The notes under the pieces were generated by a model, which saw only the letters and a program-made list of their open reading frames with translations, ran no database searches and was not told where the DNA came from. The position numbers and the translations under genes are program-made. Shown piece after piece: positions 29,023 to 47,880 of a stretch of 57,034 nucleotides of DNA. The DNA is from an uncultured Prevotellaceae bacterium (GTDB lineage Bacteria > Bacteroidota > Bacteroidia > Bacteroidales > Bacteroidaceae), in contig CADCIB010000018.1 in NCBI GenBank assembly GCA_902801375.1, positions 1 to 57,034 of the forward strand, given 5' to 3'. Numbering within the stretch: position 1 is the stretch's first letter; every line of letters begins with the position of its first letter.

Positions 29023-30186
29023 TCACTTCACCACCACTTTTTTGCCGTTGGTGATGTAGAGGCCGCGCTGCAGACGGTTGGTCTGGATGCCCTGCAGGTT
29101 GTAGTAAACGGTTGCGGGCTGCTCGTTGTTCAGTTCGTCGATGCCGGTAGAGTCGCCACTGAGGTTCTTGGCCACGGCTGAAACCTTCTCGGCACCCTCG
29201 GTGAGGTCGAGCGTGAATGTCACGTTGTACTCGCCAGCACGGTTGATTTCAAGCAGTGCGTTGCCATCGGTTGTCTCAGGATCGCCATAGCTCAGTTCGA
29301 ACGAGTGGTCGAAGCAGGCCTTGAAGGCATAAGTTTCAGCGTCGAGCTGAACATTCTCCTTGACGAGCGTCCAGGTGCCGTCGCTCTGCTCGGTCATGTC
29401 GTTGTCAGCGCAAGCTGCATCCCAGAAGGGGCCGAAGAGAGTGGTCTCTCCGCTGTCGGCTCCTGCCACGCCACCGGCGATGGTCCATGTGTGATCGATA
29501 ACAGCCGAACCCGTTTTCTCGGGAGTAGCACTCACGGCATGTGTCGTTGGGTTGAAAGTGAAGGTGACGTCGTATGTGCCATCCTCAGGAATTGCGAACG
29601 AAGCGTTGCTCGAAGGATAGGCCTCTCCCCAGTCGTGGTTGGCAGCCACTTTATACTGGATGGTACCCTTACCGAGCTCAACAGCCTTCTTCACAAGCTT
29701 GAACGTGCCGTCGGACTGCTTAGTCATGTCGTTGTCAGCGTTTGCGGGATCCCATGAAGTGCCGAAGAGGGGTACAGAGCTACCAGCTACGGTCCAGGTC
29801 TTGGCATCGGGGTCTACGACATACTCACCCGTCTTCTCGGCGGTGGCACTCACATCCTGCCACTCTTCGTCGAATTCGAAAGTAACGGTGTACTCAGCCG
29901 TTTCCTCAACGGTCAGTACGGCATTGTCGGCGGGCCATGACTCTGCCCAAGAGTGGTTCTTCACTACCTTGTAGGTGTAGTCGCGACCAGCTTCCAGTTT
30001 ACAACCTGTTACCACCAGCTGATAGATGCCTGTCTCAACTTCAGTCATGTCGTTTTCGGTATTCGTCTGATCCCAGCTGGCGCCGTTCACGATGTCGGAA
30101 ACACCTGCTACGGTGTAAGTGTCCTGTGCGAATGTGCTGACGGTTCCCACCAGCATCATTGCGATAAGCGTAAAAATTTTTTTCAT
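29023..30186 (-). CDS. secreted protein with three X25-type starch-binding modules and sorting tail
   Basis: The 387-residue protein has a signal peptide (about 1-20, ending TFAQ) but no lipobox cysteine. Three repeats follow (about 22-120, 130-225, 232-335) with the pattern TVAG....LFGxxWDPAxxDNDMTxxxDGTxxLVK....YKVxxNHxWxESY, which resembles the amylopullulanase X25 module found in SusE/SusF-like proteins. The last 40 residues (YYNLQGIQTNRLQRGLYITNGKKVVVK) form a type IX sorting-type tail. It is probably a surface starch-binding protein exported by a different route from SusE and SusF. It lies 97 bases after the 992-residue amylase gene with no -7 box of its own, so it may be read from that promoter. 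Confidence 0.8.
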   Translation of the reverse strand: MKKIFTLIAMMLVGTVSTFAQDTYTVAGVSDIVNGASWDQTNTENDMTEVETGIYQLVVTGCKLEAGRDYTYKVVKNHSWAESWPADNAVLTVEETAEYTVTFEFDEEWQDVSATAEKTGEYVVDPDAKTWTVAGSSVPLFGTSWDPANADNDMTKQSDGTFKLVKKAVELGKGTIQYKVAANHDWGEAYPSSNASFAIPEDGTYDVTFTFNPTTHAVSATPEKTGSAVIDHTWTIAGGVAGADSGETTLFGPFWDAACADNDMTEQSDGTWTLVKENVQLDAETYAFKACFDHSFELSYGDPETTDGNALLEINRAGEYNVTFTLDLTEGAEKVSAVAKNLSGDSTGIDELNNEQPATVYYNLQGIQTNRLQRGLYITNGKKVVVK

Positions 30187-30283: not shown

Positions 30284-33262
30284 TTATTTTACGGCGTACT
30301 TGCGGCCGTTGATGATGTAGAGTCCCTTCATGGGTTTGCCGTTGATGCGGCGACCCTGGAGGTCATAGCATTTGCTATTTGCAAACTTGCTGTTTTCAAT
30401 CTGGCTGATAGTCGTGGGAGCTTCTGGCACGACGGCTTTCAGACCGTTTGGCGTGTAGTAGCCTCCGTTGACGAATTCGAAGTCGGCTGTCTGCGTGGTG
30501 GCGCTGTTATTCTCCACATTGGCGAAGAGCAGTCCTGTAGGCTCTGTCTCGAAGATGTAAGTGTAAACGCCCTTGCCACGGTTGTCGCCTACACGCGTCA
30601 TGGCGAGGTTGCCAGGCCACTCGATGGTGCTGACATTGCCTTCCTCGCCCCATGCCCATACGTAAGGCGAAGGATAGGCGGCTGTTGCCTCGAAATAGAC
30701 ATAGAGCTTTCCGGGCTGGTAGCGTGCGCAGTCGGGCAGCTGGAATTCCACGTAGTCGTCGGTGATGTCAGCATACTCACCACCGCCGTCGTACTCAAAG
30801 TAGCTGTCGGAGGTGATGCCTTCGATGTTCTCGGTCTGTGTCTCGCCGATGATGCCCTCTTCTGTTCCGTTGTTGAGGATAAGGCTGAGGCTCTCTGCGA
30901 TGAGGGTCTTCACGTAGAAGGTCTCGCCGTTGATGGTTTCCGTCTCGGTCATCTTGTTTCCTGGCCACGGACCGTTGATGGGTGTGCCTAACTCATCCCA
31001 AGCGTAGAGGTAGGGTGCGCTGGCAGCACGGGTCTTCGGCTCCACCATCTTCACATAGATAGTGATGGTGTGGTCTTCCACATCGCCCATCTGGTAGCTG
31101 GCGTCCACCTTCTGGTAGCCGGAGGCACCATTGTAATAGTAGTATACTTCGCCGGTGACATCCGTGATGTCGGCTGTCTGTCCGCCGTTGCCGTTGTTGA
31201 AGATGATGTTGGCCACTGCCACATTGCCGAGTGTGGTGGTGAACCACTGAGTGCCGTTGGGCGTAGTGGTCACCTCGCTCATCTTCGTGCCGGGCCATGT
31301 ACCGTTGATGGGATCGCCGTTCTCGTTCCAGGCATAGAGGTTGGGAGCCTCCTTGGCACATACATGCACGACAACCTTCTCGCCAGCGGGCTGGTAGTTC
31401 TTGTCGACAATCTCTACGCCAGTGTAGCCGTTGTAGGCGAAGTAGAGGTCAGTGCCGGTCAGGCCGAGGATATCGGGTGTCTTGCGCTCTTCGTCGCCCG
31501 ACTTACCGTTGTTGAAGATGATGTTCATCTCGTCGGCATCGATGCTCTGCACGTACCACACGGTGCCGTTCTCGCCTGTCTCGGTCGAGGTCATCTGCGT
31601 ACCGGGCCACTCGCCGTTGAGGGCTCCGCCTTCGTTCCAAGCATAGAGATAGGGTGCGCTGGGCGCATAGACATGTACCTTGATGGCCTCGGGCGGCAGT
31701 GGCTTGTAGAACTCGTTGTCGACAATCTCGTAGCCCGTCTTACCATTGTAGTAGAGATAGGTGGTCTCGTCGAGATCCTCGATGTTGGTGGTCTGCTGCG
31801 TGCCGCTGCTCAGGATGATGTTGAGGGCTGTGGCGTTGAAGGTCTTCACATACCACTCTGTGCCGTTGGGCGTGGTCTCCGTTTCGGTCATCTTTCCGCC
31901 CGGCCATTCACCGTTGAGCAGATCACCCTCGTTGTCCCAGGCATAGAGATAAGGCTCGCTGTGGGCGCAGACATAGAGCTTGTAGTCCTTCTTCGGCAGC
32001 TCGTCGTAGTTCAGGCCCTCTACGGTGACGTTTTCGCTCACGTAGTAGGCGAAGTTGCTGCCACTGGTGATGAGTTTGAAGCCAGTGGTGTCGTAGTTGC
32101 CCACGTTGCCGGCGGTCACCATGACGGTGCCCACCGTGCCCTGGGTCTTGATCACGTAGCCGCTGCCCACCGATGCCTGATAAATGATTTGGCTCTGGTT
32201 GGTCAGACCGGCGGCCTTACGGGCGAGAATCATGTTGCCGATGTCGCGGCTCCATTTCTTCCAGTGTTTCAGGAATACGCAGGGCGTGCCCGGCATGCCG
32301 AGGATGAAGGCCGTTGCGCCAAGCTGGTTGTTCAGACAGCGATTGTAGCTCTCGCGGTCGGAGTCGTGGTTGTCCACGAAGGTCACGATGTAGCGGTTGA
32401 TGCTGGCATCGCCGGCCAGACCCTTGTCGCCCAGTGCACCATAGTCGCCCGAGCCGAAAGCTTTGTTGAGCTGGTACTTCAGGGGGAAGTCGAAGGCAGC
32501 CGATGTCTTGCCCGTGCTGTTGATCCACCAGGTGATGGCCTCCTTGCCGTCCCAGTATTCGCCCACGCAGAACTGCGGCTTGCTGTATTCGTTGTACATC
32601 TTGGTGTACTCCGGGCCGTAGCCCTTCACCATGTCGAGGCGGAAGCCCACATAGCCAATCTTCTCCAAGAGGAACTTGCAGTAGGCCTTACAGTTCTCCT
32701 GCACGTTCGTACTCTTGTGGTCGAGGTCGCGACCGCCAGAGAAGTCGTCGCCCGTGTCGTCGTTGGGACCCACCTCGATGCCTTTCGATGCGGTGTATCC
32801 GCCATCGTCGTTCTTAGTGACATCTCTCGAGGTCAGCTGGTAGGTCTGTCCGTCGAGCGTGTTTTTCTCAGAGGGGAAGTCAGCCCAGTCGGCTACGCCG
32901 TTGCGGTGGTTGATGACCAGGTCCATGATGATGCCCGTTCCCTTTTCCTTGAACGTCTTAATCATGTTGAGCAGCTCCTTGGGCTTTCCGAAGGCGCTAT
33001 TGTGATTGTACCAATAGACGGGGTTGTAGCCCATGCTCTGCGATTGCTTGCAATAGCCGGAATTCGGTACCCATATCAGGTCGAAATACTTTGACAGCTC
33101 ATCGGCCTGGCTGGTGAGGTTTGTCCACTTGGTGTCGTCGTAGGAGTCCCACCAGAACCCCTGAAGCATGACACCGCCATAATTCTCAGGCCATCCCTGT
33201 GCCGATGCTGTGAGCGCCGACACGATGACCATTAATGTCATAAGGAATCTCTTTACCTTCAT
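30284..33262 (-). CDS. secreted GH13 alpha-amylase with five CBM26 modules and sorting tail
   Basis: The 992-residue enzyme should hydrolyse alpha-1,4 bonds of starch. Signal peptide is about 1-22. The GH13 barrel (about 23-420) has DLVINH (114-119), GFRLD with nucleophile D210, VGEYWD with acid/base E235 and FVDNHD with D300. Five starch-binding modules of CBM26 type follow at about 427-515, 528-620, 631-722, 733-834 and 851-940, each with a YLYAW...GEWPGxKM core. The tail YDLQGRRINGKPMKGLYIINGRKYAVK marks type IX export. The upstream region has a LacI-type site and a -7 box without a -33 box. Five tandem CBM26 units is a high number for one enzyme. Confidence 0.92.
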   Translation of the reverse strand: MKVKRFLMTLMVIVSALTASAQGWPENYGGVMLQGFWWDSYDDTKWTNLTSQADELSKYFDLIWVPNSGYCKQSQSMGYNPVYWYNHNSAFGKPKELLNMIKTFKEKGTGIIMDLVINHRNGVADWADFPSEKNTLDGQTYQLTSRDVTKNDDGGYTASKGIEVGPNDDTGDDFSGGRDLDHKSTNVQENCKAYCKFLLEKIGYVGFRLDMVKGYGPEYTKMYNEYSKPQFCVGEYWDGKEAITWWINSTGKTSAAFDFPLKYQLNKAFGSGDYGALGDKGLAGDASINRYIVTFVDNHDSDRESYNRCLNNQLGATAFILGMPGTPCVFLKHWKKWSRDIGNMILARKAAGLTNQSQIIYQASVGSGYVIKTQGTVGTVMVTAGNVGNYDTTGFKLITSGSNFAYYVSENVTVEGLNYDELPKKDYKLYVCAHSEPYLYAWDNEGDLLNGEWPGGKMTETETTPNGTEWYVKTFNATALNIILSSGTQQTTNIEDLDETTYLYYNGKTGYEIVDNEFYKPLPPEAIKVHVYAPSAPYLYAWNEGGALNGEWPGTQMTSTETGENGTVWYVQSIDADEMNIIFNNGKSGDEERKTPDILGLTGTDLYFAYNGYTGVEIVDKNYQPAGEKVVVHVCAKEAPNLYAWNENGDPINGTWPGTKMSEVTTTPNGTQWFTTTLGNVAVANIIFNNGNGGQTADITDVTGEVYYYYNGASGYQKVDASYQMGDVEDHTITIYVKMVEPKTRAASAPYLYAWDELGTPINGPWPGNKMTETETINGETFYVKTLIAESLSLILNNGTEEGIIGETQTENIEGITSDSYFEYDGGGEYADITDDYVEFQLPDCARYQPGKLYVYFEATAAYPSPYVWAWGEEGNVSTIEWPGNLAMTRVGDNRGKGVYTYIFETEPTGLLFANVENNSATTQTADFEFVNGGYYTPNGLKAVVPEAPTTISQIENSKFANSKCYDLQGRRINGKPMKGLYIINGRKYAVK

Positions 33263-33378: not shown

Positions 33379-33386
33379 CAAATTTA
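33379..33386 (-). promoter_or_regulatory. -7 box TAAATTTG of the five-CBM26 amylase gene
   Basis: The reverse strand reads TAAATTTG (TAnnTTTG). No TTTG or TTG lies 19-21 bases upstream (about 33406-33410), and a LacI-like site is centred 66 bp upstream. Position implies a leader of about 110 bases. Confidence 0.65.
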
Positions 33387-33442: not shown

Positions 33443-33454
33443 GTAATCGGTTGC
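33443..33454 (-). promoter_or_regulatory. candidate LacI-family site GCAACCGATTAC
   Basis: It matches the perfect palindrome GCAAACGTTTGC of the susC/lacI region at 9 of 12 positions, including GCAA and the central CG. The CG centre (33448.5) is 66 bp from the -7 box centre (33382.5), the same distance as at the other sites. Confidence 0.6.
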
Positions 33455-33607: not shown

Positions 33608-35659
33608 TTATCTCACGACGTACTTCTTGCCATTGACGATGTATAACCCCTTCTGGGTCAAGCTGTTGATACGGCGTCCCTGCAGGTCGTAGATGCGTAC
33701 GCCGGCAGGCTTGCCATCGGCAAAGATGTCATCGATGCCCACTTGCACTTGCTCCACGAAGCCATCCTTCGTGTAGTAGCCGCCATTGAAGAACGGCAGG
33801 TCGGCTGTCTGCGGCGCACCGTTGCTGCTGAAGATGATGTGCGACGGTGGTGTGGTGAAAGTCCCGGTATAGGTCCATTTCCACACGGCGTTGCCATTGC
33901 TTGCCTTGCCCAACTCGTTGCAGGCCTGGCCGGGCCATGAACCGCCAGTGTAGTTCACATTGTTGTTGTTGGTGTCCCACGCCCAGCACTTTATGTCGCT
34001 CCATGACAGGGGTGACTCGAAGAAGGCGCAAATCTCACCTTCTCCCACTGTGCAGAAGTCGGGGATGATCACGGGATCCTTCTCGTCGGCATTCTTCACC
34101 ACGTAGTTTCGAGTGATGACAGCGCTGACCTTTCCGTCGATGAGGAGGCCCACTTTCAGGGTGGTTTCTCCGTGCGGTATGACAACAGCAGCGCCATTCT
34201 CCACCTGGGTGTCGGCTGCCGTGGGCTCAGAACCGTCGAGCGTGTAGACCAGCTTCGCACCCTCTGCAGCGGTGACAGCTGCCAGTCGCACCTCCATTTC
34301 GCCCGTTCTGTATGTGCCAGAAGCCTTGTCTACCCATGCCGTGTTGAGCGAGTTGGCCAGATAGTAGCGGTAGTGACGGCCTTCGAGCACCTGCGTGTAT
34401 TGCGATGCTTGCGGTACCCAGCCTTCGAGATTGCTACCAACGACCACCACGAGGCGGTTTTCATCGCCCACCTTCACGGCAGTGGCGTAGTAGTCCTTGC
34501 TGCTGCGCATGTTGGCGTAAGAACTGGTATTGACGATGCCAGCGGCACGACGCACGTCGGCCATCGAGGCTATCTCGTTGGAATATTTCAGCCAGTGCTT
34601 CATGAACACGCACGGTGTGCCTGGCATGGCCAGCAGATAGGCGTTGGCGGCCAGCGTGTCTTTCTCCAACGGACCGTTGGAAGAGCCGTCGGGACGCTTT
34701 TCCGTGTCGTGGTTCTCCACGAAGGTGATTGCCCATTGGCGGAAGCTACCGCTTTTGAAACTGGAACTGTTCAGCGGCATGTCGCCCCAGGGGTTCTTCT
34801 GCCCCAGCTTGGAATAGTCTCCGTTATTGAACGCATTGGCACACACGTACTTGAACTGGAAGTCGAATGCAGCACTCTGCGGAACATCATCCACCTTGGT
34901 GCCATTGATCCAGTTGCTGATGGTCTCGGAGCTGTCCCAGCACTCGCCTACGGAGAACTGCGGCTTGGCTTCAGCATTATACTGGCCGGTAAATGAAGCA
35001 GAATAGCCTTTCACCATGTCGTAGCGGAATCCCGTATAGCCCAGGTCGTTGAGCAGGAAGTCGAGGTAAGCGCGGACGCAGCGCTGCACATTTTCGCTCT
35101 TATGATCAAGGTCTCGCATACCGCCCCAGTCCTCGCCGGTGTCGTTGTTGGCGCTGACCTGATAGCCGTTCTCTTCGGCCCATTTCTTGGCTGCGCCGCC
35201 ATCGTCGTTTCTGCAGATGTCGGTGGAGACCATCTCGTAGGTCTCGCCTTTGTAGGTCTCGCGGGGGAAGTCCACCCAGTTGGTGAGGTTCTTACGGTGG
35301 TTGATGACCACGTCGGCAATCGTTCCGATGCCTTTCTCCTTGAAGGTCTTGATCATGGAGCGCAGCTGGGCCTCGGTGCCGAAAGCGCTGTTGTAGTCGT
35401 TGAACCAGTAGAGGTCGTCGTAGCCCATCGACTTATAGCCGCAGTTGCCGCTCTGCGGAATCCAGACGAGGGAGAAAACGCGGGCCAGATCGTCGGCCTG
35501 ACTCTCGAGGACTGCCCATTGGGCGTCGTCGAAGCCGTCCCAGTAGAAACCTTGCAGCATGATGCCGCTGTAGTCTTTCGGCCAACCCTGGGCCGACATG
35601 TTTGTGCTTACTGCCATCAGGAGCAGTGTGCAGATGATGATGTGTAGATAATGTTTCAT
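33608..35659 (-). CDS. secreted GH13 alpha-amylase with CBM26 and sorting tail
   Basis: The 683-residue enzyme is a paralogue of the 992-residue amylase. Signal peptide is about 1-24. The GH13 barrel (about 25-440) has VVINH, GFRYD with nucleophile D214, VGECWD with acid/base E239 and FVENHD with D318. A beta-sandwich of chitobiase-C-terminal type follows (about 455-525, KLVYTLDGSEPTAADT), then one CBM26-like module (about 545-640) and the tail YDLQGRRINSLTQKGLYIVNGKKYVVR. It has a complete promoter (35688-35719) and strong hairpins on both sides, so it is a single-gene unit. Unlike its neighbour it has no LacI-like site at the 66-bp position. Confidence 0.93.
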   Translation of the reverse strand: MKHYLHIIICTLLLMAVSTNMSAQGWPKDYSGIMLQGFYWDGFDDAQWAVLESQADDLARVFSLVWIPQSGNCGYKSMGYDDLYWFNDYNSAFGTEAQLRSMIKTFKEKGIGTIADVVINHRKNLTNWVDFPRETYKGETYEMVSTDICRNDDGGAAKKWAEENGYQVSANNDTGEDWGGMRDLDHKSENVQRCVRAYLDFLLNDLGYTGFRYDMVKGYSASFTGQYNAEAKPQFSVGECWDSSETISNWINGTKVDDVPQSAAFDFQFKYVCANAFNNGDYSKLGQKNPWGDMPLNSSSFKSGSFRQWAITFVENHDTEKRPDGSSNGPLEKDTLAANAYLLAMPGTPCVFMKHWLKYSNEIASMADVRRAAGIVNTSSYANMRSSKDYYATAVKVGDENRLVVVVGSNLEGWVPQASQYTQVLEGRHYRYYLANSLNTAWVDKASGTYRTGEMEVRLAAVTAAEGAKLVYTLDGSEPTAADTQVENGAAVVIPHGETTLKVGLLIDGKVSAVITRNYVVKNADEKDPVIIPDFCTVGEGEICAFFESPLSWSDIKCWAWDTNNNNVNYTGGSWPGQACNELGKASNGNAVWKWTYTGTFTTPPSHIIFSSNGAPQTADLPFFNGGYYTKDGFVEQVQVGIDDIFADGKPAGVRIYDLQGRRINSLTQKGLYIVNGKKYVVR

Positions 35660-38195: not shown

Positions 38196-39812
38196 TTAGT
38201 ATCCGGGGTTCTGAATGAGCACTTCGTCAACAGCTGAAGCTGGGATGGCGAAGATGTTCTTCGTTGCCTCGAAGTTGCGGCCGTTCTTCACGCCGCCCTT
38301 CCAAGACCATTGATAGTCGCTGTTGCCTCCGAACTTGCCGAAACGGATGAGGTCCACACGACGACGACCTTCGAAGTAGAACTCCTTCTGCCACTCATCG
38401 AGAATGTTGCCCAGCGAATATACGGTCTTCGTGTCACCGTTGTTGGCGCGGGCACGGAGTGCATTGATGGCAGCAGTTCCCTCAGCAGTGGTGGAATTGC
38501 CATTGAGGCGGGCTGTAGCCTCTGCGTAAGTCAGATAAGCCTCTGCGACACGGAACATGAAGAAGTCGGTGTCAGGGAACTTGGCATCGTGACCTGATGA
38601 GCCGTCGGTCTTGAAGTTCACGAACTTGGCCACAGCATAACCATCCTTGAACACGCCAGCATAGCCGGTGGGATTGTCCACCTGACGTCCGATACCATCG
38701 AAGAGGGCGCGGTCGTCACCAGCGGCTTCCTTCATGTCATAGGCAGCCACCTGCGGAGCGTCATTGTTGGGGAAGAACTGCTTGATGAGCTCCAGGCGTG
38801 CACGGTTACCACCCCAGTTGGCATCGGTACCATTGGTTGCTCTTGACTCAGCATCAACATCGAAGGGGTTGGCATGCATGTCACCGTCGAATGTCGAGGC
38901 CATCACATACAAGGAAGTACCGTATGAAGTGGTGGTTCTACCATCGCAGAGGATGGGGAACACAGCCTCGTAGGCAGCATCTGTCTCACCATTGTCGCCC
39001 ATGAAGAGCATCTGATACGGTGTCCAGCCATTCACACCCTTGGTGTTCAAGCGATAGTCGGAGTCCATCACCTTCTTGGCATACTCGGCAGCCTTCTGCC
39101 ATTGTGCTGTTCCTGTGTACACCTCGGCGTTCAGGTACAGACGCATCAACAGAACCCATGCGGCAGCCTTGTCCACACGACCGTAGTTGGCGTCAGTGCT
39201 CTTCTTGGCCTTGGCCTCAGCAAGAGACGGTTCAATCTCAAGCAGCTCGCTCTCTATCCAGTCATAAGCCTCCTGACGAGTCATCCGAACCGGGTTGCCC
39301 AGTGTGGTGGAGAAGGGGATGTTTCCGAAGGCATCCATCAACAGATAATAATGGAATGCGCGGAGGAAACGCACCTCGGCCGTCATCGTGGCGTCATGGT
39401 CGGAAGCCACTGTAAGGTATTGGTTACAGTAGGAGATACCCGTTGTCAGACGGTTGAAATAACCGTTGAGCATCGGATGGCTGCTGTCGTATGAGTTGTA
39501 GCAGAACTGCGAGATACCATCGTCACCCCAAGAGCAGATGGCTTCGTCGGTAGTCAGCTCGTTGCTGTTCCACATCTGGCGTACGAATCCGGTGGTACCA
39601 CCGTCCAATCCATCAATGTCGCAATCGCCATCGGCACCACTGTTACCAGCCAAAGCGATGTTGGCGTAGCACTTGTTGAAAAGTCCTTCGGGGCTGTATT
39701 CCAATGCCAAATTGGGATTGATGGGAGTCACGTCCAGGTCACCCGTGCAGGATGACATTCCTAATGCGAGCGCGAAGGCTGCAGCAGGTACTATTTTATT
39801 GAAATATTTCAT
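38196..39812 (-). CDS. susD: SusD-type starch-binding outer-membrane lipoprotein
   Basis: SusD caps the SusC channel and captures maltooligosaccharides. The 538-residue protein has a lipobox ALALGMSSC (Cys 22) and TGDLDVTPINPNL. The TPR-rich SusD body has RFLRAFHYYLLMDAFGNIPFST (about 130-150) and the C-terminal part has EWQKEFYFEGRRRVDLIRFGKFGG, both diagnostic of the family. It ends in EVLIQNPGY, also typical. It lies 20 bases after susC. Confidence 0.95.
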   Translation of the reverse strand: MKYFNKIVPAAAFALALGMSSCTGDLDVTPINPNLALEYSPEGLFNKCYANIALAGNSGADGDCDIDGLDGGTTGFVRQMWNSNELTTDEAICSWGDDGISQFCYNSYDSSHPMLNGYFNRLTTGISYCNQYLTVASDHDATMTAEVRFLRAFHYYLLMDAFGNIPFSTTLGNPVRMTRQEAYDWIESELLEIEPSLAEAKAKKSTDANYGRVDKAAAWVLLMRLYLNAEVYTGTAQWQKAAEYAKKVMDSDYRLNTKGVNGWTPYQMLFMGDNGETDAAYEAVFPILCDGRTTTSYGTSLYVMASTFDGDMHANPFDVDAESRATNGTDANWGGNRARLELIKQFFPNNDAPQVAAYDMKEAAGDDRALFDGIGRQVDNPTGYAGVFKDGYAVAKFVNFKTDGSSGHDAKFPDTDFFMFRVAEAYLTYAEATARLNGNSTTAEGTAAINALRARANNGDTKTVYSLGNILDEWQKEFYFEGRRRVDLIRFGKFGGNSDYQWSWKGGVKNGRNFEATKNIFAIPASAVDEVLIQNPGY

Positions 39813-39832: not shown

Positions 39833-42800
39833 TTAGAAATTAAGGTTCACACCAACGATAAACGACAGTGGACGCGGATACATCTCATTGTCATAGCCAC
39901 CAGAGATTTCCGGGTCAAGACCCTTGTACTTTGTGATTGTGAACACATTGGAAGCTGTAGCATAAACACGTCCGCTCATGCCGTTATAGTTTCCGCTCTT
40001 CAACAGACGGTCGAAGCTGTAACCCAGTGTGATGTTGTCGCACTTCAGGAACGAGGCGTTGTGAACATAGCGGTCGCTCAACAGGGCGGTCACGTCGTAG
40101 GTCTGCCAGTTGTCTTCGATGACGAATGTCGGACGGTTGCTCAGGTATTTCAGTGACGACCAAACCTCGTTGGGGTTCACACAAGCCTGTCCGCTCTCAA
40201 TGTTGTTGAACACGTAGTTGTTGAAGTTCGCACGGAGTGAGAAACTGAAGTCCCAATTCTTGTATTCCATGCGGGAAGCGAGGCCGACGGTCACGTCGGG
40301 AGCCGGCTTCTTATAGAAATAGCGGTCGTCCTGGGTGATCTGTCCGTCACCGTTGCGGTCAACCACGAGTCCCTCAATGGCCTTTCCATTGGCATCGTAA
40401 ACCTGTTGGTACACATAGAATGCGTTAGTGGCATAACCCACCTGGTTGTACTGCAGGTACTTGTCGGTACCGATAGTGGGACCTGTCGGAACGGGAGAGC
40501 CGTCTGAGCTCACACCGGAGAGGTCGGTGATTTCGTTGTGGTTGTAGGTCACATTGCCGTTCAGTGTCCAGTAGAAGTCACTGGTTTGGATGGCCTTCCA
40601 GTCGACTGTCACCTCAATACCCGTATTCTTCAGCGAACCGATGTTCTGCCAGGCCTTGTTACGGAATGCCGACATCGGCTTGGTGGGTGCATAGTTCAGA
40701 AGGTCGGTGGTCTTGCGGTAGTACCAATCGATGCTACCAGAGAGGCGCTGGTTCATCACACCCCAGTCAAGACCGATGTTGAAGGTCTCGGTGGTCTCCC
40801 ATTTCAGTTTCGGGGTGTAGTTGTCCGGACGGTACAGGATACCGGTTCCTGTGACAGGATAGAAGCCGTTTGTACCAGTGCTCATCGAATAGGTGGGAAT
40901 CCATGCATAGTCGTTGTTCACGTCTTGCTGACCAGTCTTACCCCAACCGAGACGAAGCTTCAGGTCAGAAAGCACGGTGGCATTCTTCAGGAAGCCTTCC
41001 TCGTTGATTTTCCAAGCGAAAGCGGCTGAGGGGAAGATGGACCAGTGGTCCTCGAAACGGCTGGAACCGTCGTCACGAATCGTGAAAGTCAGCATGTAAC
41101 GGTCGAGCAGTGAGTAATTGGCACGTCCGAAGAATGAGACGAGGTAGTTCTCAGTCTTGAACAGTCCCGGTGTGTGCGGACGCTCCTTTGTGGGATTGTT
41201 GTTAGCGTCGCGCTCGTAGCCTACATAGTCGCTGTGCTCGCTTCTCCAGAAACGCTGCCACTCGTAACCGCCCATGATGTCGAAGTGGTGCACTTCGGCG
41301 AAGTCCTTGTAATACTGGGCGTATGTGCTCAGCGTGAGGTTGCGCTTGGTGGTTGTCGACGAACCCTTCGATCCGTAATAAGCAGAACCTGGATAGGTAT
41401 AGGGATTGTCGGTGTACTGTGTACCTTTCGAAATGTCGGCACCGAGTGTCAGGTGGAGGCGCAGGTCCTCAAAACCGTGAATCTTGTAGTCGAAGTCAGC
41501 GCTGCCGATGAACGAGCGGCTGTAAGCTGTATCGAAAGCCGAAAGTAATGCCAACGGGTTCTTCGTGGCTTCCTGGCGTACGGTGTACGGCCAGCTGGGG
41601 TTGCCATAGGCAGCTGCGTTCAGCCACTCGAAGTAACCACCGAAGTTAGCTAATGTCTTTTTGTAAGTGTCGGTGTTCGCACCGCCCAACATACTGTCTT
41701 CACCGCCGATGTAATAAGGAGAGGTGAAGGCGTAGGGGTCTTGTGTCGGGTCCATACGGAAGGCAGCACCTACGGCACCACCGTTGGCATAGTCCGACTT
41801 GGCGAACATACCCTTGGCGTTCAGGTTCATTGTCAGGTGGTCGTCCAAGAGTGAGGGGTTCAGGTTCAGGGCGGCGGTGACACGCTGGAAGTCAGAGGTC
41901 TTCAGCGTACCTTGCTGTCCTGTGTAACCCAGTGACAGACGATAGGGGAGGTCTTTCATGGCGCCTGCTACGGTCACGTTGTGGTCGTGCGAGATACCTG
42001 TGCGGTAGATGAGGTCTTGCCAGTCGGTGTTAGCCGTTCCCAGTGCGGAATAAGCCTCACTGTTCTTGCCCCAGATCTTCTCGATAAATGCACGATATTC
42101 GTTACCGTCCATCACGTCGAGTGTGCTCTTGTTGACACTCACTGTGGCACTTCCAGCATAGGAAATGCTGGGTTTCTGACCCTTGCGACCCTTCTTCGTG
42201 GTGATGATGATGACACCGTTCGAACCACGGCTACCATAGATGGCCGTTGCCGAAGCGTCCTTCAGCACGTTGAAGCTCTCAATGTCCTGCGGGTTAATCA
42301 TAGAAAGAGGGTTAGCCAGACCCTTCACACCATTGTTATCCATGGGCACACCATCGAAACAATCAGCGGGTCGTTCGATGCGTTCAGTGACGATCCACCA
42401 CGAATACGGATGGTGGCACCACCACCAGGGGTACCGTCGCCGCTGGTGACGTTCACACCGGCAATCTTACCCTGCATCAGGTCTTGCGGATTCACCACGA
42501 GCCCCTTGTTCTTTGAATCCGGCTTCAAGGCAGCTACTGAACCGGTCAGGTCGCTCTTCTTGGCGACACCGTAACCGATGACCACCACTTCATTCAGTGT
42601 CTGAGCTGCATCGTCGTGCATGATAATGCTCAGATTCTCTGCGGCATCCACAATCACGGTGTCGAAGCCGATGAACGAAATCTCGATCTTGTCGCCAGGA
42701 TTTGCCTTAATCGTAAAATTACCGTCGAAGTCGGTCACCGTTCCGCCTTCTTGGCCCGCAACGCGGACCGTGGCGCCGATGACGTCTTCGCCGGTAGCAT

Positions 42801-42915
42801 CTTTCACATGGCCGTTGACAGTAATCTGCTGTGCAAAGGCCCCTAATGATAGGATCAGCCCACAAAAGAGGGCAAGAATCCGCTTGGGGATTCTGATGTT
42901 TACCTGCTTCATCAT
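39833..42915 (-). pseudogene. susC: SusC-type TonB-dependent starch transporter, frameshifted
   Basis: SusC is the outer-membrane channel that imports maltooligosaccharides using TonB energy. The N-terminal part (start 42915 or 42912) has a signal peptide, a carboxypeptidase-like domain (VNGHVKDATGEDVIGATVRV) and NEVVVIGYGVAKKSDLTGSV, then the plug up to [11 protein letters not shown]. There the frame is lost and stops near 42328. The remainder ([56 protein letters not shown]... to the end of the barrel, VGVNLNF) continues intact in another frame to 39833. One base is missing at about 42357, where GTT-ATC-GAT would be expected and GTT-TC-GAT is present. All else is intact, so this is either a very recent mutation or a sequence error. 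Confidence 0.92.
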
Positions 42916-42998: not shown

Positions 42999-43006
42999 CA
43001 AAAGTA
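42999..43006 (-). promoter_or_regulatory. -7 box TACTTTTG of the susC operon
   Basis: The reverse strand reads TACTTTTG. No -33 TTTG or TTG lies 19-21 bases upstream (about 43026-43030). The LacI-type palindrome is centred 66 bp upstream. Confidence 0.75.
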
Positions 43007-43062
43007 AAGAAAAATCCAATAGCGCGTATAAATATGTAGGATAAAAATCTTGTTTGAGTGGC

Positions 43063-43074
43063 GCAAACGTTTGC
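43063..43074. promoter_or_regulatory. LacI-family operator GCAAACGTTTGC
   Basis: A perfect 12-bp palindrome with a central CG, the classical shape of LacI/PurR-family sites. It lies between susC and the lacI gene with its centre (43068.5) exactly 66 bp from both -7 boxes (43002.5 and 43134.5). The symmetric upstream location suggests activation of both promoters. Confidence 0.85.
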
Positions 43075-43130
43075 ATTAAAAATTGCCTAATAATATAAAA
43101 GAACACGTAAAAACTGATGCAAAAAATCAT

Positions 43131-43138
43131 TATCTTTG
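43131..43138 (+). promoter_or_regulatory. -7 box TATCTTTG of the lacI-type regulator gene
   Basis: Forward TATCTTTG (TAnnTTTG) places transcription start near 43145, consistent with a start codon at 43230. No -33 box is seen at 43107-43111. Confidence 0.7.
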
Positions 43139-43229: not shown

Positions 43230-44261
43230 ATGCCTATGAACGAACGTGGTGTCATCACAATGAAAGACATTGCCAGAGAACTGGGAGTCTCTGTGGCTAC
43301 CGTGTCGCGGGCGTTGAAAGACAGTCCACGCATCAGCCAGCAGAAGCGTGAGAAGATTCAGGCCTATGCTGAGGAGCATCATTTCTATCCGAATGTGATA
43401 GCTGAGACTTTGCGTAACAGCCGTGTTGCCCTGCCGAAAATCATTGGTGTCATCGTGCCTCAGATAGCCCACTATTACTTCTCTACCATCTTGGCAGGAA
43501 TCGAAGAGCAGTCGCGGGTGCGTGGCTACCGCATTATGGTGGCTCAGAGCAACGAGCAGTACGAGCGCGAGAAGCGCATCTGTGAGTCGTTCTTGGAACA
43601 CCGCGTCTGTGGCGTCATCGTTTCCTTGGCGAAAGACACAACGAGATACGAGCACTTCCAGCGCCTTGTGGACAACCATCTTCCTGTGGTGTTTTATGAT
43701 CGCATCTGCACGGGTGTGAACACGAATCGTGTTGTGGTCGACGATTACATGGGAGCCTACACCGCTGTTTCTCACCTGATCGATACGGGGTGTCGTCGCA
43801 TTGCTTTTTTCAGTTCTTCGATGAGTCTGGAGATTTCCAAAAACCGTTACAATGGTTACCGCGATGCCATTCTTAAGCGTGGATTGAATGTGGACGACAG
43901 CTTGCATTATATCTGCGACGAACGGAGCGAGGCAGAGATGATAACGCCGAAAATCCTGAACAGCCCGAATCGCCCAGATGCCTTTTTTGCCATCAACGAC
44001 GATACGGCCATTGGCATTCTCTATTCGGCCAAGCGTATGGGGTTCCGCGTCCCTCAAGACATCAGCATTTGCGGCTTCACCAATGGCGAACGAGCCATTG
44101 CCTGTGACCCGCAGCTTACTACCGTGGAGCAGCGTGGCCACATGGTGGGTGAGGAGGCCGTCGACATACTCGTAGACCATGTGGAGGGTATTACCCCGCC
44201 CGACAAGGTGGTGAAGCGTGTGGTGCGCACTCGTCTCATCGTCCGCGGCACAACGAGGTGA
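43230..44261 (+). CDS. LacI-family transcriptional regulator of the starch locus
   Basis: The 343-residue protein has an N-terminal LacI helix-turn-helix and hinge (ITMKDIARELGVSVATVSRALKDSPRISQQKREKIQAYAEEHHFYPN). A periplasmic-binding-type sugar domain follows (IIGVIVPQIAHYYFSTILAGIEEQ..., PVVFYDRICTGVNTNRVVVDDYMGAY, DAFFAINDDTAIGILYSAKRMGFRVPQDISICGF). The frame is open back to 43083, but that lies before the expected transcription start, so ATG 43230 was chosen; 43236 is also possible. It is divergent from susC and likely binds GCAAACGTTTGC between them. The ligand is probably maltose or a maltodextrin product (inference). Confidence 0.93.
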   Translation: MPMNERGVITMKDIARELGVSVATVSRALKDSPRISQQKREKIQAYAEEHHFYPNVIAETLRNSRVALPKIIGVIVPQIAHYYFSTILAGIEEQSRVRGYRIMVAQSNEQYEREKRICESFLEHRVCGVIVSLAKDTTRYEHFQRLVDNHLPVVFYDRICTGVNTNRVVVDDYMGAYTAVSHLIDTGCRRIAFFSSSMSLEISKNRYNGYRDAILKRGLNVDDSLHYICDERSEAEMITPKILNSPNRPDAFFAINDDTAIGILYSAKRMGFRVPQDISICGFTNGERAIACDPQLTTVEQRGHMVGEEAVDILVDHVEGITPPDKVVKRVVRTRLIVRGTTR

Positions 44262-44347
44262 TTCGATAATAAAAAGGACAACTCAAAAATAAATAAGATT
44301 GATATAGAACATTGTGGTCTGAAAGCATTAATAACGTTCTAATAGTT

Positions 44348-44371
44348 TGACAATTATGAATTATGAATTAA
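44348..44371 (+). repeat. AATTATGAATTATGAATTA repeat at the MFS gene start
   Basis: Tandem ATTATGA units overlap the start of the transporter gene and supply its ATG and first codons (MNYEL). This is a familiar AT-rich spacer repeat of Bacteroidetes. Confidence 0.55.
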
Positions 44372-45669
44372 AAACAAAGCCGAATCTGTCGTTTTGGCAG
44401 TTGTGGAACCTGTCGTTCGGGTTCTTTGGCGTGCAGATTGCCTATGCTCTGCAGAGTGCAAACATCTCGCGCATTTTCCGCACCCTTGGTGCCGACCCTC
44501 ACAACCTAAGTTTCTTCTGGATTCTTCCCCCGTTGATGGGCATCTTGGTGCAACCCATCGTGGGTACTTGTAGTGACAAGACATGGACACGCTGGGGTCG
44601 GCGCATACCTTATCTATTTATAGGTGCAGCCGTAGCCGTGGCCGTGATGTGCCTCTTGCCCAATTCCGGGTCATTGGGATTGGCCGTGTCGGCCGTGATG
44701 ATTTTCGGACTGCTCATGCTCATGCTCCTCGACACGAGTATCAACATGGCCATGCAGCCGTTCAAAATGCTTGTCGGCGATATGGTGAACGAAGAGCAGA
44801 AGGCCAAGGCCTACAGCATCCAGTCGTTCCTGTGTAATGCCGGTAGCGTGGTGGGCTTCCTTTTCCCCTTCGTGTTCACATGGATTGGTCTGAAGAACAC
44901 GGCTCCGGAAGGCGTCGTGCCGCCCTCAGTGGTATGGTCGTTCTACATTGGTGCCTTGATTCTCATCCTCTGTGTCATTTACACTACCGTGAAGGTGAAG
45001 GAGTGGGATCCGCAGGAGTATCGCGCCTACAATCCCGTGAGCGAGGAGAAGGAGGATAAGGCCAACTGGTTTGCACTGCTGAAGAATGCACCCTCTACTT
45101 TCTGGAAAGTTGGACTCGTACAGTTCTTCTGCTGGGCTGCATTCCTTTACATGTGGACCTACGTCACCGATGCCGTTTCCGAAACCGTATGGGGAACGAC
45201 GGATGCCGCCACTGAGGCTTACCAGAAGGCTGGTAACTGGACGGGTGTGCTTTACGCCATCCAGGCCATGGGCAGTGTGTGCTGGGCCATGTTGCTGCCG
45301 CGTTTCAAAAACACGAAGCTGGCCTACGCCATCAGTCTTCTCATTGGTGGTATCGGCTTCGCGCTGATTCCCTTCTGCCCCAACCAGTACCTGCAGATTG
45401 TTCCCTTCCTGCTCATCGGTTGTGCGTGGGCTGCCATGCTTGCCATGCCGTTCACCTTTGTGACTAACGCCCTGCAGGGTTACGGCCACATGGGTGCTTA
45501 CCTGGGATTGTTCAATGGCACCATCTGCCTGCCGCAGATCATTGCAGCTGTCTGTGGTGGCACCATTTTCACCATCGTGGGTGGTCACCAGAGCACGATG
45601 ATGATTGTGTCGGGTGTGCTTCTTGCCATCGGAGCCTGCTGCGTCACCGCCATCAAGACCCGCCGATAA
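44356..45669 (+). CDS. MFS sugar transporter, SLC45/GPH-like (probable maltose uptake)
   Basis: The 437-residue protein has twelve predicted membrane helices. It shows the family motifs SFWQLWNLSFGFFGVQIAYALQSANISRIFRTLGADP near the N-terminus and DKTWTRWGRRIPYLFIGA in the loop between helices 2 and 3 (the MFS-type RxGRR signature). It resembles the sucrose/maltose proton symporters of the SLC45-like group, often encoded with GH13 enzymes in Bacteroidetes. It follows the lacI gene by 94 bases and probably shares its transcript. It would import maltose or short maltodextrins from the periplasm. The first residues (MNYELK) come from a spacer repeat, so the native start may have been replaced. 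Confidence 0.87.
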   Translation: MNYELKTKPNLSFWQLWNLSFGFFGVQIAYALQSANISRIFRTLGADPHNLSFFWILPPLMGILVQPIVGTCSDKTWTRWGRRIPYLFIGAAVAVAVMCLLPNSGSLGLAVSAVMIFGLLMLMLLDTSINMAMQPFKMLVGDMVNEEQKAKAYSIQSFLCNAGSVVGFLFPFVFTWIGLKNTAPEGVVPPSVVWSFYIGALILILCVIYTTVKVKEWDPQEYRAYNPVSEEKEDKANWFALLKNAPSTFWKVGLVQFFCWAAFLYMWTYVTDAVSETVWGTTDAATEAYQKAGNWTGVLYAIQAMGSVCWAMLLPRFKNTKLAYAISLLIGGIGFALIPFCPNQYLQIVPFLLIGCAWAAMLAMPFTFVTNALQGYGHMGAYLGLFNGTICLPQIIAAVCGGTIFTIVGGHQSTMMIVSGVLLAIGACCVTAIKTRR

Positions 45670-45764: not shown

Positions 45765-47774
45765 TCAGAATTCAAGGATGAGCGTTTCGCGTGGTGTGAG
45801 GATGACGTCGCTCGAGAGGTCAATGGTGCGGCCTGTGATGACGTCGGCTGCGGTCTTCGTCGTGCCGATGAGCTCCTCGTAGCGTTTCACCTCCATCGTC
45901 GCGGGCTTGGATGTGCCGTTGAGAATGGTCATCACGGTGCGTCCGTTCAGTCGGCGTGCGATGACATAGATGCCGTTGTGGGGGATGAACTGCGTCATAC
46001 GACCCTTTGTAATGACCTCATTGCCTTGACGCCAGTGGAGCAGGCGCGAAGTGAAGTTGAACATGTCGTTCTCCGCTTGGGTGCGTCCTTCAGCGGTAAA
46101 GGCACTGCGTGCATCGCCTGGGAATCCGCCAGGGAAGTCCTTGCGCACGTTGCCGTCAGTCCTGTGCTTTGTACCGTTCATCATGATCTCCGTGCCGTAG
46201 TAGAGCTGCGGGATGCGCGGAATGGTGAGCAGCAGGGCCAGTCCCTGCTTCAGGGCCAATGCGTCTTGTCCGTCCTCGAGGAAACGGTTGGTGTCGTGGT
46301 TGTCGAGGAAGGCCATCACGCTGTTCGGGTTCTCGTACAGGTAGTCATAGACGAACGAAATGTACAGGCGATTGTAGCCGCGCCACCAATTGTCTGTCTC
46401 CTCGTGTTTGGCGCTGTCGAGACTCTCCTGGAAGGAGAAGTCCATCACGGTCTTGAGGTAGGAGTTCTTCGAAGGAGCTTGGCTGCGGCAGTGCGAGGGT
46501 TCGAGATTACCTTCTGCCTCCGGACATTTCTCGCACTCACTTACCTTCGCACCATCGCACCCTCGAGAATTGCACTTAGGAACCAATCGTGAGTCTTTTT
46601 GCCACGTAGCAGTATAGGCGGGTTGAGTGACCCATGTCTCACCCACAACGTTGAAGTTGGGGTATTCCTCGTCGAGGGTCTTCATCCAGCGGGCCATGCC
46701 GTCGGCGAAGGCATAGGGATAGGTGTCCATGCGGATGCCGTCGATGCCGATGGTTTCAATCCACCAGATAGAGTTCTGGATGAGATAGGTCATGACGTGC
46801 GTGTTGCGCTGGTTGAGGTCGGGCATGGTGCTGACGAACCATCCTTCCACCGTCTCGCGGCGGTCCACCTCACTGGCGTAGGGGTCGAGCACAGGAGTCA
46901 GTTTGTAGCTTGTCTGTAGGAACGAAGTGTTGCGCGAGTCGCTGGTGCCTCCCGACTCTTTCAGCCAGTCGTGCAGGTTGAACCAGTCGTTCGAAGGCAT
47001 GTCAGCCACCCACGGATGCTCGAAGCCGCAGTGGTTGAAGATCATGTCCATCACGATTTTCAGTCCTTTCTGATGTGCTTCGTCGGTGAGCTGGCGGTAT
47101 TCCTCATTGGTGCCGAAGCGTGGGTCTACGCGGTAATAGTCGGTAGTGGCATAGCCATGGTAGGTGGAAAAATCGAACTGGTCGGGCGAATCGTTCTCCA
47201 GGACGGGCGTAAACCACAATGCCGTCACGCCAAGGTCGTTGAAGTAGTCGAGGTGCTGGCGAAGTCCTTCCAGGTCGCCGCCGTGGCGAAGCGAAGGCTT
47301 GCTGCGGTCGACGGTGTAGTGGCGCATTCCCTTGATGGGCGCTTTCGTGTATTTGCCTGACGAGGCGAAACGGTCGGGCATGAGCATGTAAAGCACATCC
47401 TCGTTGGTGAACCCCATGCGTTCCTCGCCACTCATCTCCCGCTCGCGGAGCAAGTATTTCACCGCTTTCTTTTGTTTGCCGATGGTGAAGTTGAGGGTCA
47501 TCTCACCTGGCTGTGCGTCTTTCAGGTTCATGTAGACGAGCAGGTAGTTGGGCGAGTCGAGTCTCACAAGACTGTCGATGACAGCGCCGGGATAGCTGGT
47601 CGACACATCGGCTTCTCGAATACCGTTGCCATACACCATGAGCTGTACTGATGGATTCTTGAGACCTACATACCAGTCAGTAGGGTCGATGCGAGTGATG
47701 TTCACTTTATTGGCGGCATTCAGCGTACATGTAGTTGCCGCTAAAAGGGCGAAAAGAAATAGGATTTTCTTCAT
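45765..47774 (-). CDS. GH13 neopullulanase/cyclomaltodextrinase-like enzyme (SusA-like)
   Basis: The 669-residue enzyme has a signal peptide (MKKILFLFALLAATTCTLNA) and an N-terminal cyclomaltodextrinase-type domain (ITRIDPTDWYVGLKNPSVQLMVYG). In the GH13 barrel, DMIFNH, GIDGIRMD with the nucleophile Asp, NVVGETW with the acid/base Glu and FLDNHDTNRF are all present. It would cut maltodextrins in the periplasm. The frame is open to 47960, but the signal peptide and a -7 box at 47805-47812 support the start at 47774. An unusual stretch of about 35 residues, rich in Cys, Glu and Ser (CDGAKVSECEKCPEAEGN...), is inserted at about residues 400-435, encoded by short repeats. It has no sorting tail. 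Confidence 0.9.
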   Translation of the reverse strand: MKKILFLFALLAATTCTLNAANKVNITRIDPTDWYVGLKNPSVQLMVYGNGIREADVSTSYPGAVIDSLVRLDSPNYLLVYMNLKDAQPGEMTLNFTIGKQKKAVKYLLREREMSGEERMGFTNEDVLYMLMPDRFASSGKYTKAPIKGMRHYTVDRSKPSLRHGGDLEGLRQHLDYFNDLGVTALWFTPVLENDSPDQFDFSTYHGYATTDYYRVDPRFGTNEEYRQLTDEAHQKGLKIVMDMIFNHCGFEHPWVADMPSNDWFNLHDWLKESGGTSDSRNTSFLQTSYKLTPVLDPYASEVDRRETVEGWFVSTMPDLNQRNTHVMTYLIQNSIWWIETIGIDGIRMDTYPYAFADGMARWMKTLDEEYPNFNVVGETWVTQPAYTATWQKDSRLVPKCNSRGCDGAKVSECEKCPEAEGNLEPSHCRSQAPSKNSYLKTVMDFSFQESLDSAKHEETDNWWRGYNRLYISFVYDYLYENPNSVMAFLDNHDTNRFLEDGQDALALKQGLALLLTIPRIPQLYYGTEIMMNGTKHRTDGNVRKDFPGGFPGDARSAFTAEGRTQAENDMFNFTSRLLHWRQGNEVITKGRMTQFIPHNGIYVIARRLNGRTVMTILNGTSKPATMEVKRYEELIGTTKTAADVITGRTIDLSSDVILTPRETLILEF
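46470..46576 (-). repeat. in-frame repeat insertion inside the GH13 gene
   Basis: This stretch contains CTTCGCACCATCGCACCCTC units like those at 1117-1150, and an inverted pair GTGCGAG (46491-46497) / CTCGCAC (46530-46536). It encodes the low-complexity Cys/Glu/Ser-rich insert between LVPK and NSYLKTVMDFS. It is a multiple of three in length, so the frame is kept. Confidence 0.6.
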
Positions 47775-47804: not shown

Positions 47805-47812
47805 CAAAGATA
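47805..47812 (-). promoter_or_regulatory. -7 box TATCTTTG of the neopullulanase-like gene
   Basis: The reverse strand reads TATCTTTG. It lies 31 bases before the ATG at 47774. No -33 box is seen at about 47832-47836. Confidence 0.7.
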
Positions 47813-47868: not shown

Positions 47869-47880
47869 ACAAACGATTGC
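47869..47880 (-). promoter_or_regulatory. candidate LacI-family site GCAATCGTTTGT
   Basis: It matches GCAAACGTTTGC at 10 of 12 positions. Its CG centre (47874.5) is 66 bp from the -7 box centre (47808.5), exactly as at the susC and lacI promoters. Confidence 0.75.

Follow-up and report, generated by a model that had tools for sequence, protein, structure and literature searches.

Most of the characterized members of the LacI family are repressors that are released by a sugar, and LacI-family activators are already known as well. Cra/FruR and CcpA are known to activate from upstream sites; they belong to the same protein family as the regulator described here but are global carbon regulators with mixed roles, and we know of no fixed distance to one class of promoter for either of them. 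In class I activation of the CRP type in E. coli, the site lies at about -61.5 or -71.5 and does not overlap the core promoter. That position is similar to the one found here, but the protein family and the sigma factor are different, and the contact with the C-terminal domain of the alpha subunit could be carried over to the present case only by analogy. To our knowledge, little has been established about activator action at the unusual -7/-33 promoters found in Bacteroidota. In B. fragilis, the osu starch operon and its maltose-responsive activator OsuR were reportedly described by Spence, Wells and Smith in 2006 (J Bacteriol 188:4663), and the osu system would share with the locus described here a positive, maltose-responsive control of a susC-like starch operon. 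The predicted sus loci of B. fragilis and B. uniformis are described as containing GH65s, MFS transporters, and regulators predicted to be of the LacI type, and the two species as having no SusR homologue (PMC11633381). SusR of B. thetaiotaomicron is a membrane protein and a maltose-responsive activator of the susC operon, and the sites predicted for it consist of direct repeats with a spacing of 67 or 77 bp (PMC3878776). The LacI-family sugar regulators KdgR, UxaR, UxuR, and UxmR of Bacteroides, from the same phylum, are assigned there to uronate pathways rather than to starch, and no starch LacI regulator appears in the regulator table as far as the accessible text gives it (PMC3878776). A comparative study of the LacI family places sites relative to the start codon, describes Cra as both repressor and activator, and predicts activation for some members from the position of their sites, and its accessible part contains no fixed-distance rule for LacI-family sites (PMC4052901). 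In the literature covered, which lay mostly outside subscription journals and was accessible in part, we found no description of the operator geometry reported below or of a LacI-type starch activator in Prevotella.

The stretch of DNA analyzed here (57,034 nucleotides, hereafter the window) contains a starch/maltodextrin locus. Its regulator gene (43236..44261, + strand) encodes a LacI/GalR-family protein, as judged from the translation and from matches above the Pfam cut-offs to LacI (PF00356, 57.8 bits, cut-off 27) and Peripla_BP_3 (PF13377, 106.9 bits, cut-off 26.5). The protein scores far below the equivalog cut-offs of both CcpA (NCBIfam TIGR01481, 157.2 vs. 442.35 bits) and Cra/FruR (NF008452, 132.9 vs. 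385 bits). This regulator and SusR both stand at susC operons, but SusR is a membrane protein with direct-repeat sites whereas here a LacI-family protein goes with one palindrome, so that neither the regulator nor its site is of the SusR type. An MFS/GPH-type sugar transporter gene (44347..45669, + strand; MFS_1) lies 3′ of lacI and is probably co-transcribed with it. The sus-like cluster comprises a susC-like TonB-dependent receptor (39833..42915, - strand; TIGR04056) in two frames (42325-42915 and 39833-42349), a susD-like starch-binding lipoprotein (38196..39812, - strand; SusD_RagB, with NF033071 below its cut-off), a protein with a SusF_N match below the cut-off, and, at its end, a susG-like GH13 amylase with CBM26 (33608..35659, - strand; Pfam). 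The split of the susC-like gene between frames falls at 42325-42349 (- strand), inside the plug domain, and is either an assembly error or a real frameshift. A cyclomaltodextrinase/neopullulanase (45765..47774, - strand; Pfam) likely has its true start at the ATG at 47774, where a signal peptide was judged by eye. A second GH13 amylase carries four CBM26 modules by domain search (30284..33262, - strand). Downstream of it, a protein with three pullulanase X25 domains (29023-30186, - strand) is probably another starch-binding protein. From the sequence evidence presented below, we consider it quite likely that the LacI-family protein controls starch use, is of the maltose/maltodextrin type, and acts as a class I-like activator, including at its own gene.

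Between the divergent susC and lacI genes lies a predicted shared operator, the perfect palindrome GCAAACGTTTGC (43063..43074, assigned to no strand; center 43068.5). It is an even palindrome with a central CG, the latter being a characteristic feature of LacI-family operators (PMC4052901), and so has the form of a LacI-type operator by sequence. By pattern, the -7 box of the susC promoter is TACTTTTG (42999..43006, - strand, forward letters CAAAAGTA; center 43002.5) and that of the lacI promoter is TATCTTTG (43131..43138, + strand; center 43134.5). The center of the operator is 66 bp from each of them. The first-pass annotation had given these coordinates and both distances and had noted that neither promoter has TTTG near -33, all of which proved correct when the letters were read again. 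The palindrome alone was rejected as evidence, since it occurs exactly once in the 3.48 Mb genome, as does the reversed control, and with up to two mismatches it is found at 142 places while the reversed control is found at 162. Because the palindrome is no rarer than its reversed control, the informative part is its placement.

It is evident that this placement recurs within the window. We scanned the 30 TAnnTTTG boxes of the window over distances from -60 to 199 bp, i.e., 7,800 combinations of box and distance, for operators matching GCAAWCGWTTGC at 10 or more of the 12 positions. Such operators were found at six combinations, four of which are at exactly 66 bp, with the remaining two at 100 and 109 bp. 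The four cases at 66 bp are susC, lacI, the cyclomaltodextrinase, and the second amylase. The predicted second operator, GCAATCGTTTGT (11/12; 47869..47880, - strand), lies upstream of the -7 box TATCTTTG of the cyclomaltodextrinase (47805..47812, - strand; by pattern), and the predicted third operator, GCAACCGATTAC (10/12; 33443..33454, - strand), lies upstream of the -7 box TAAATTTG of the second amylase (33379..33386, - strand; by pattern). The geometry of operator and -7 box is far beyond chance.

Close relatives of the LacI protein (63-77% identity, two of them partial) are present in 28 of 35 relatives of the same genus. In this first set, nearly all operator-bearing loci have -7 boxes 65-66 bp away toward susC and 64-67 bp away toward lacI, the exceptions being L015, where the susC-side box is missing, and L031, where no box stands at 64-67 bp toward lacI. 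Named records, most of them metagenome assemblies of Prevotella and some of them strains of Segatella or Hoylesella, contributed a further 80 loci. The resulting 110 loci comprise 103 non-identical upstream regions, of which 100 are at least 300 bp long, the window included. The operator GCAAWCGWTTGC is present in 93 of these 100 regions. The susC-side box lies at 65-66 bp in 89 regions (36 at 65 bp and 53 at 66 bp), the lacI-side box lies at 64-67 bp in 91 regions (2 at 64, 28 at 65, 50 at 66, and 11 at 67 bp), and both boxes are found at these distances in 87 of the 100. In L106, from Segatella baroniae B14 (formerly Prevotella bryantii B14), the operator is 65 bp from both -7 boxes, and the lacI side has another box at 55 bp. 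The 66-bp spacing seen in the window is thus kept to within one or two bases in most relatives, a check that the first-pass annotation had proposed. Seven regions lack the exact operator. In five of them an operator with one to three mismatches stands 64-68 bp from each of the two boxes; the other two (L088 and L093) have neither an operator in the upstream region nor a match to susC.

A divergent susC gene lies within 700 bp in 122 of 137 loci and was not detected in the other 15, where some of the contigs end. Three loci with no susC in the available DNA (L015, L137, and L147) still keep the lacI-side distance at 64-65 bp. In three loci of three genera (L027, L214, and L219) there are two operators, one located 65-66 bp from each promoter. 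In a sample of the family, 28 of 161 genomes have a close orthologue and 133 do not. Besides the window, this sample provides 27 loci at 52-75% identity, seven of the same genus, with L205 repeating a locus of the genus set. The lacI-side distance is 64-67 bp in 26 of the 27, with at most one mismatch in the operator (19 of the 20 outside the genus), and the susC-side distance is 65-68 bp in 21 of the 27 (15 of the 20 outside the genus) and missed in six. In another family of the order, the locus L031/L187 (52% identity) keeps 65 bp on the susC side but not the lacI-side distance. Eleven regulators of the order that are less closely related (36-48% identity) include L183, with a one-mismatch operator 67 bp from the lacI-side box, and L177, with a one-mismatch operator at 55 bp on the other side; the remaining nine show no such geometry.

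We also searched 150 genomes of the genus for a -7 box and the operator separated by a gap of 41-71 bp, corresponding to center distances of 51-81 bp. The pattern was matched in 95 genomes, and its reversed control in none of the 150; many of the 55 genomes without a match are incomplete. Among the 150 matches listed, which come from 57 genomes, 139 are at 65-67 bp. The distances in this list are 65 bp (56 matches), 66 bp (73), 67 bp (10), 64 bp (3), 55 bp (4), and 51, 53, 63, and 81 bp (1 each). The listed matches trace back to 101 operators; 47 of these are flanked by two boxes, the other 54 by a box on one side only, and 46 of the 54 one-sided operators have the box at 65-67 bp. We inspected 20 of these listed one-sided cases, all at 65-67 bp. 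In 14 of the 20, the first gene encodes a starch enzyme: a GH13 amylase in nine, a GH77 4-alpha-glucanotransferase in four, and a GH97 enzyme in one. Of the other six targets, one is a DUF3575 protein, one is beta-lactamase-like, and four are first frames from a simple gene caller that have no Pfam match. In the beta-lactamase case (L175, in G100), the same operator sequence stands 67 bp upstream of a -7 box that precedes a class A beta-lactamase-like gene, and the matched stretch is identical in G010:C3:1358824 and G017:C57:1781, the gene itself having been identified in L175 only. An identical stretch in three genomes suggests a mobile element, and the operator there is probably a coincidence of sequence. 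Across the phylum, where only the exact operator was searched and few genomes of the own order were included, five of 295 other genomes match, at distances of 52, 55, 56, 68, 74, and 78 bp, and a phylum-wide rule of 65-66 bp is accordingly unsupported.

The genomes compared are related and many are metagenome-assembled, so the counts of related loci are not independent and should not be read as probabilities. It could be argued on this ground that a compact divergent region was simply inherited whole, and that the distance itself is meaningless. We regard this as extremely improbable. The operator and the distance are kept among relatives although the spacer sequences have visibly diverged, one-sided operators at other genes stand at the same distance, and the loci with two operators keep one operator per promoter. 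Taken together with the loci in which no susC was detected, these cases cannot be explained by inheritance of one compact region. Each promoter keeps the distance on its own, and this extends to other starch genes and to the two-operator loci.

If the center of the -7 box is taken as -7, a distance of 65-66 bp puts the operator at -72/-73. The first-pass annotation had suggested that the regulator replaces the contact at -33; this part of its proposal was given up, as -33 is out of reach for a site at -73, and the natural reading would be that RNA polymerase is contacted from a more upstream position. TTTG at -33 is found in 1 of 89 susC promoters and 5 of 91 lacI promoters, which are related sequences, and in 10 of 58 background -7 boxes, a set that holds false boxes. 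The missing TTTG, which had been cited in favor of activation, therefore points in the expected direction but is weak evidence, given that so few background boxes have it. The -33 consensus came originally from 23 promoters, and a study in which no -33 motif could be identified in F. johnsoniae is cited in the literature (PMC7366714). In B. thetaiotaomicron, by contrast, a start-site map gives a -33 element.

Many of the relatives' susC promoters have a conserved A-tract (about -39 to -34) followed by GTACAACG, the two together covering about -39 to -26, so that GTACAACG stands where a -33 element would be expected. A T run at about -48 is likewise conserved in many of them. By reading, the susC promoter in the window keeps the T run and lacks the A-tract/GTACAACG element. 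In addition, a TTGAN6TCAA palindrome, which we take to be CRP/FNR-like, occurs between the operator and the -7 box in a few promoters: 7 of 89 on the susC side, where its distance to the box is 40 bp every time, and 9 of 91 on the lacI side, where its position varies. These low numbers led us to reject it as a shared partner site, and a second regulator may act there in some species. Such elements bear on the possibility that the regulator is a repressor that, from -73, blocks an UP element or the contact of another activator, or forms a loop, and is released by sugar. This would agree with the habit of most characterized LacI-family members, the T run and the A-tract of susC could be a contact region, and a minority of susC promoters carry the TTGAN6TCAA palindrome. 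However, the operator is the sole upstream motif common to the susC and lacI promoter sets, no other being found in them. Occlusion, moreover, needs no distance that is precise to one base at many promoters, and looping needs paired operators, whereas 94 exact operators were found in 93 loci, with weaker second sites possible.

Positions typical of a classical repressor are also rare. In the 150 genomes of the genus, a search of the 10-40 bp that follow -7 boxes gave 10 operator matches in nine genomes (three at 13 bp, three at 34 bp, and one each at 14, 15, 17, and 19 bp), compared with one match for the reversed control. The operators described here do not overlap the promoter or the start, as those of a Lac-type repressor would, but lie 64-67 bp upstream of the -7 box. 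An upstream repressor thus appears unlikely to us. Operators 10-40 bp upstream of a -7 box gave 18 matches in 15 of the 150 genomes, 13 of the 18 being at 28-29 bp; among these 13, G009:C17 and G027:C61 are just upstream of a LacI paralogue, and G012:C50 and G006:C95 are the sus/lacI operator itself. In 12 of the 93 operator-bearing loci (e.g., L003, L006, and L130), a -7-like box stands on the lacI side at 29 bp from the operator, an arrangement that places the operator's own TTTG at -33, and 11 of the 12 also carry the lacI-side box at 64-67 bp. The 29-bp box could be a second promoter that is blocked by the bound protein.

A second LacI paralogue (33-37% identity; L188 and L230-L249), present also in the own genome (G000:C23:35155, 35% identity), shows this closer spacing at its own promoter. 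The palindrome ACGTAAACGTTTGCG or a close variant was found in 13 of the 20 loci examined; in all 13 it is separated by 28-29 bp from the -7 box of the paralogue itself, which puts its TTTG at -33. Its distance to the box of the divergent neighbor is 54-55 bp in seven loci, 64-65 bp in three, and 73 bp in one. In the own genome, the one locus where the neighbor was identified, the neighbor is kdsB. We set the paralogue aside as evidence on helical phasing since kdsB may not be a target; in the genus search, 4 of the 150 listed matches are at 55 bp, which is few for this purpose. The genus therefore uses an overlapping, repressor-like arrangement for the paralogue, and the starch regulator is placed differently. 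The 29-bp boxes and the paralogue's spacing at its own promoter would fit a dual regulator that activates starch genes from -72 and represses its own gene, or represses when sugar is absent. This seems to us rather improbable, because 81 of the 93 operator-bearing loci, the window included, are without a 29-bp box, and because the lacI-side distance is kept in L015, L137, and L147, where no divergent susC was detected. The paralogue, having a similar core motif in the same genome, might itself bind the site, or an unrelated factor might do so. We think this very improbable, as the site adjoins this lacI gene and accompanies it throughout the family, and the paralogue's sites differ in their geometry and in carrying an extended ACG flank.

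These results are best explained by activation from upstream. The first-pass annotation had proposed that the regulator activates both susC and its own gene; the placement required by this proposal is borne out by the conserved 65-66 bp and the rarity of downstream operators, and activation itself is what we infer from that placement. With -7 boxes assigned by pattern, the site lies upstream of the core promoter, without overlap and at a fixed distance, as in class I promoters, and its position is circumstantial evidence for activation. A dimer would bind one palindrome whose center falls some 72-73 bp before the start and, once bound, would help RNA polymerase from about -72 in a class I-like manner, presumably in response to a sugar effector. 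Given the two-fold symmetry of such a dimer and the equal distance of both -7 boxes from the operator, the same surface could face both divergent promoters. One dimer would then serve both the sus-like operon and the lacI-MFS operon, and, as the latter is among the targets, we propose that the regulator gene activates itself. The cyclomaltodextrinase and the second amylase would be served by separate operators at the same distance.

A broader generalization, on which we are evenly divided, is that the LacI clade of Prevotella, Segatella, Hoylesella, and related genera consists of dedicated activators, in which one symmetric dimer at -72/-73 drives two equidistant divergent sigma-ABfr promoters with positive autoregulation, the strict 65-66 bp being the first class I rule for the RNA polymerase of Bacteroidota. 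If OsuR is an orthologue of this regulator, its genetics would support activation. The operator together with a -7 box at 65-66 bp provides a simple rule to identify members of the regulon in unannotated genomes. If the activator reading is true, a LacI-type activator runs starch use of the Prevotella type in place of SusR, and, going by published annotation, possibly that of B. fragilis as well.
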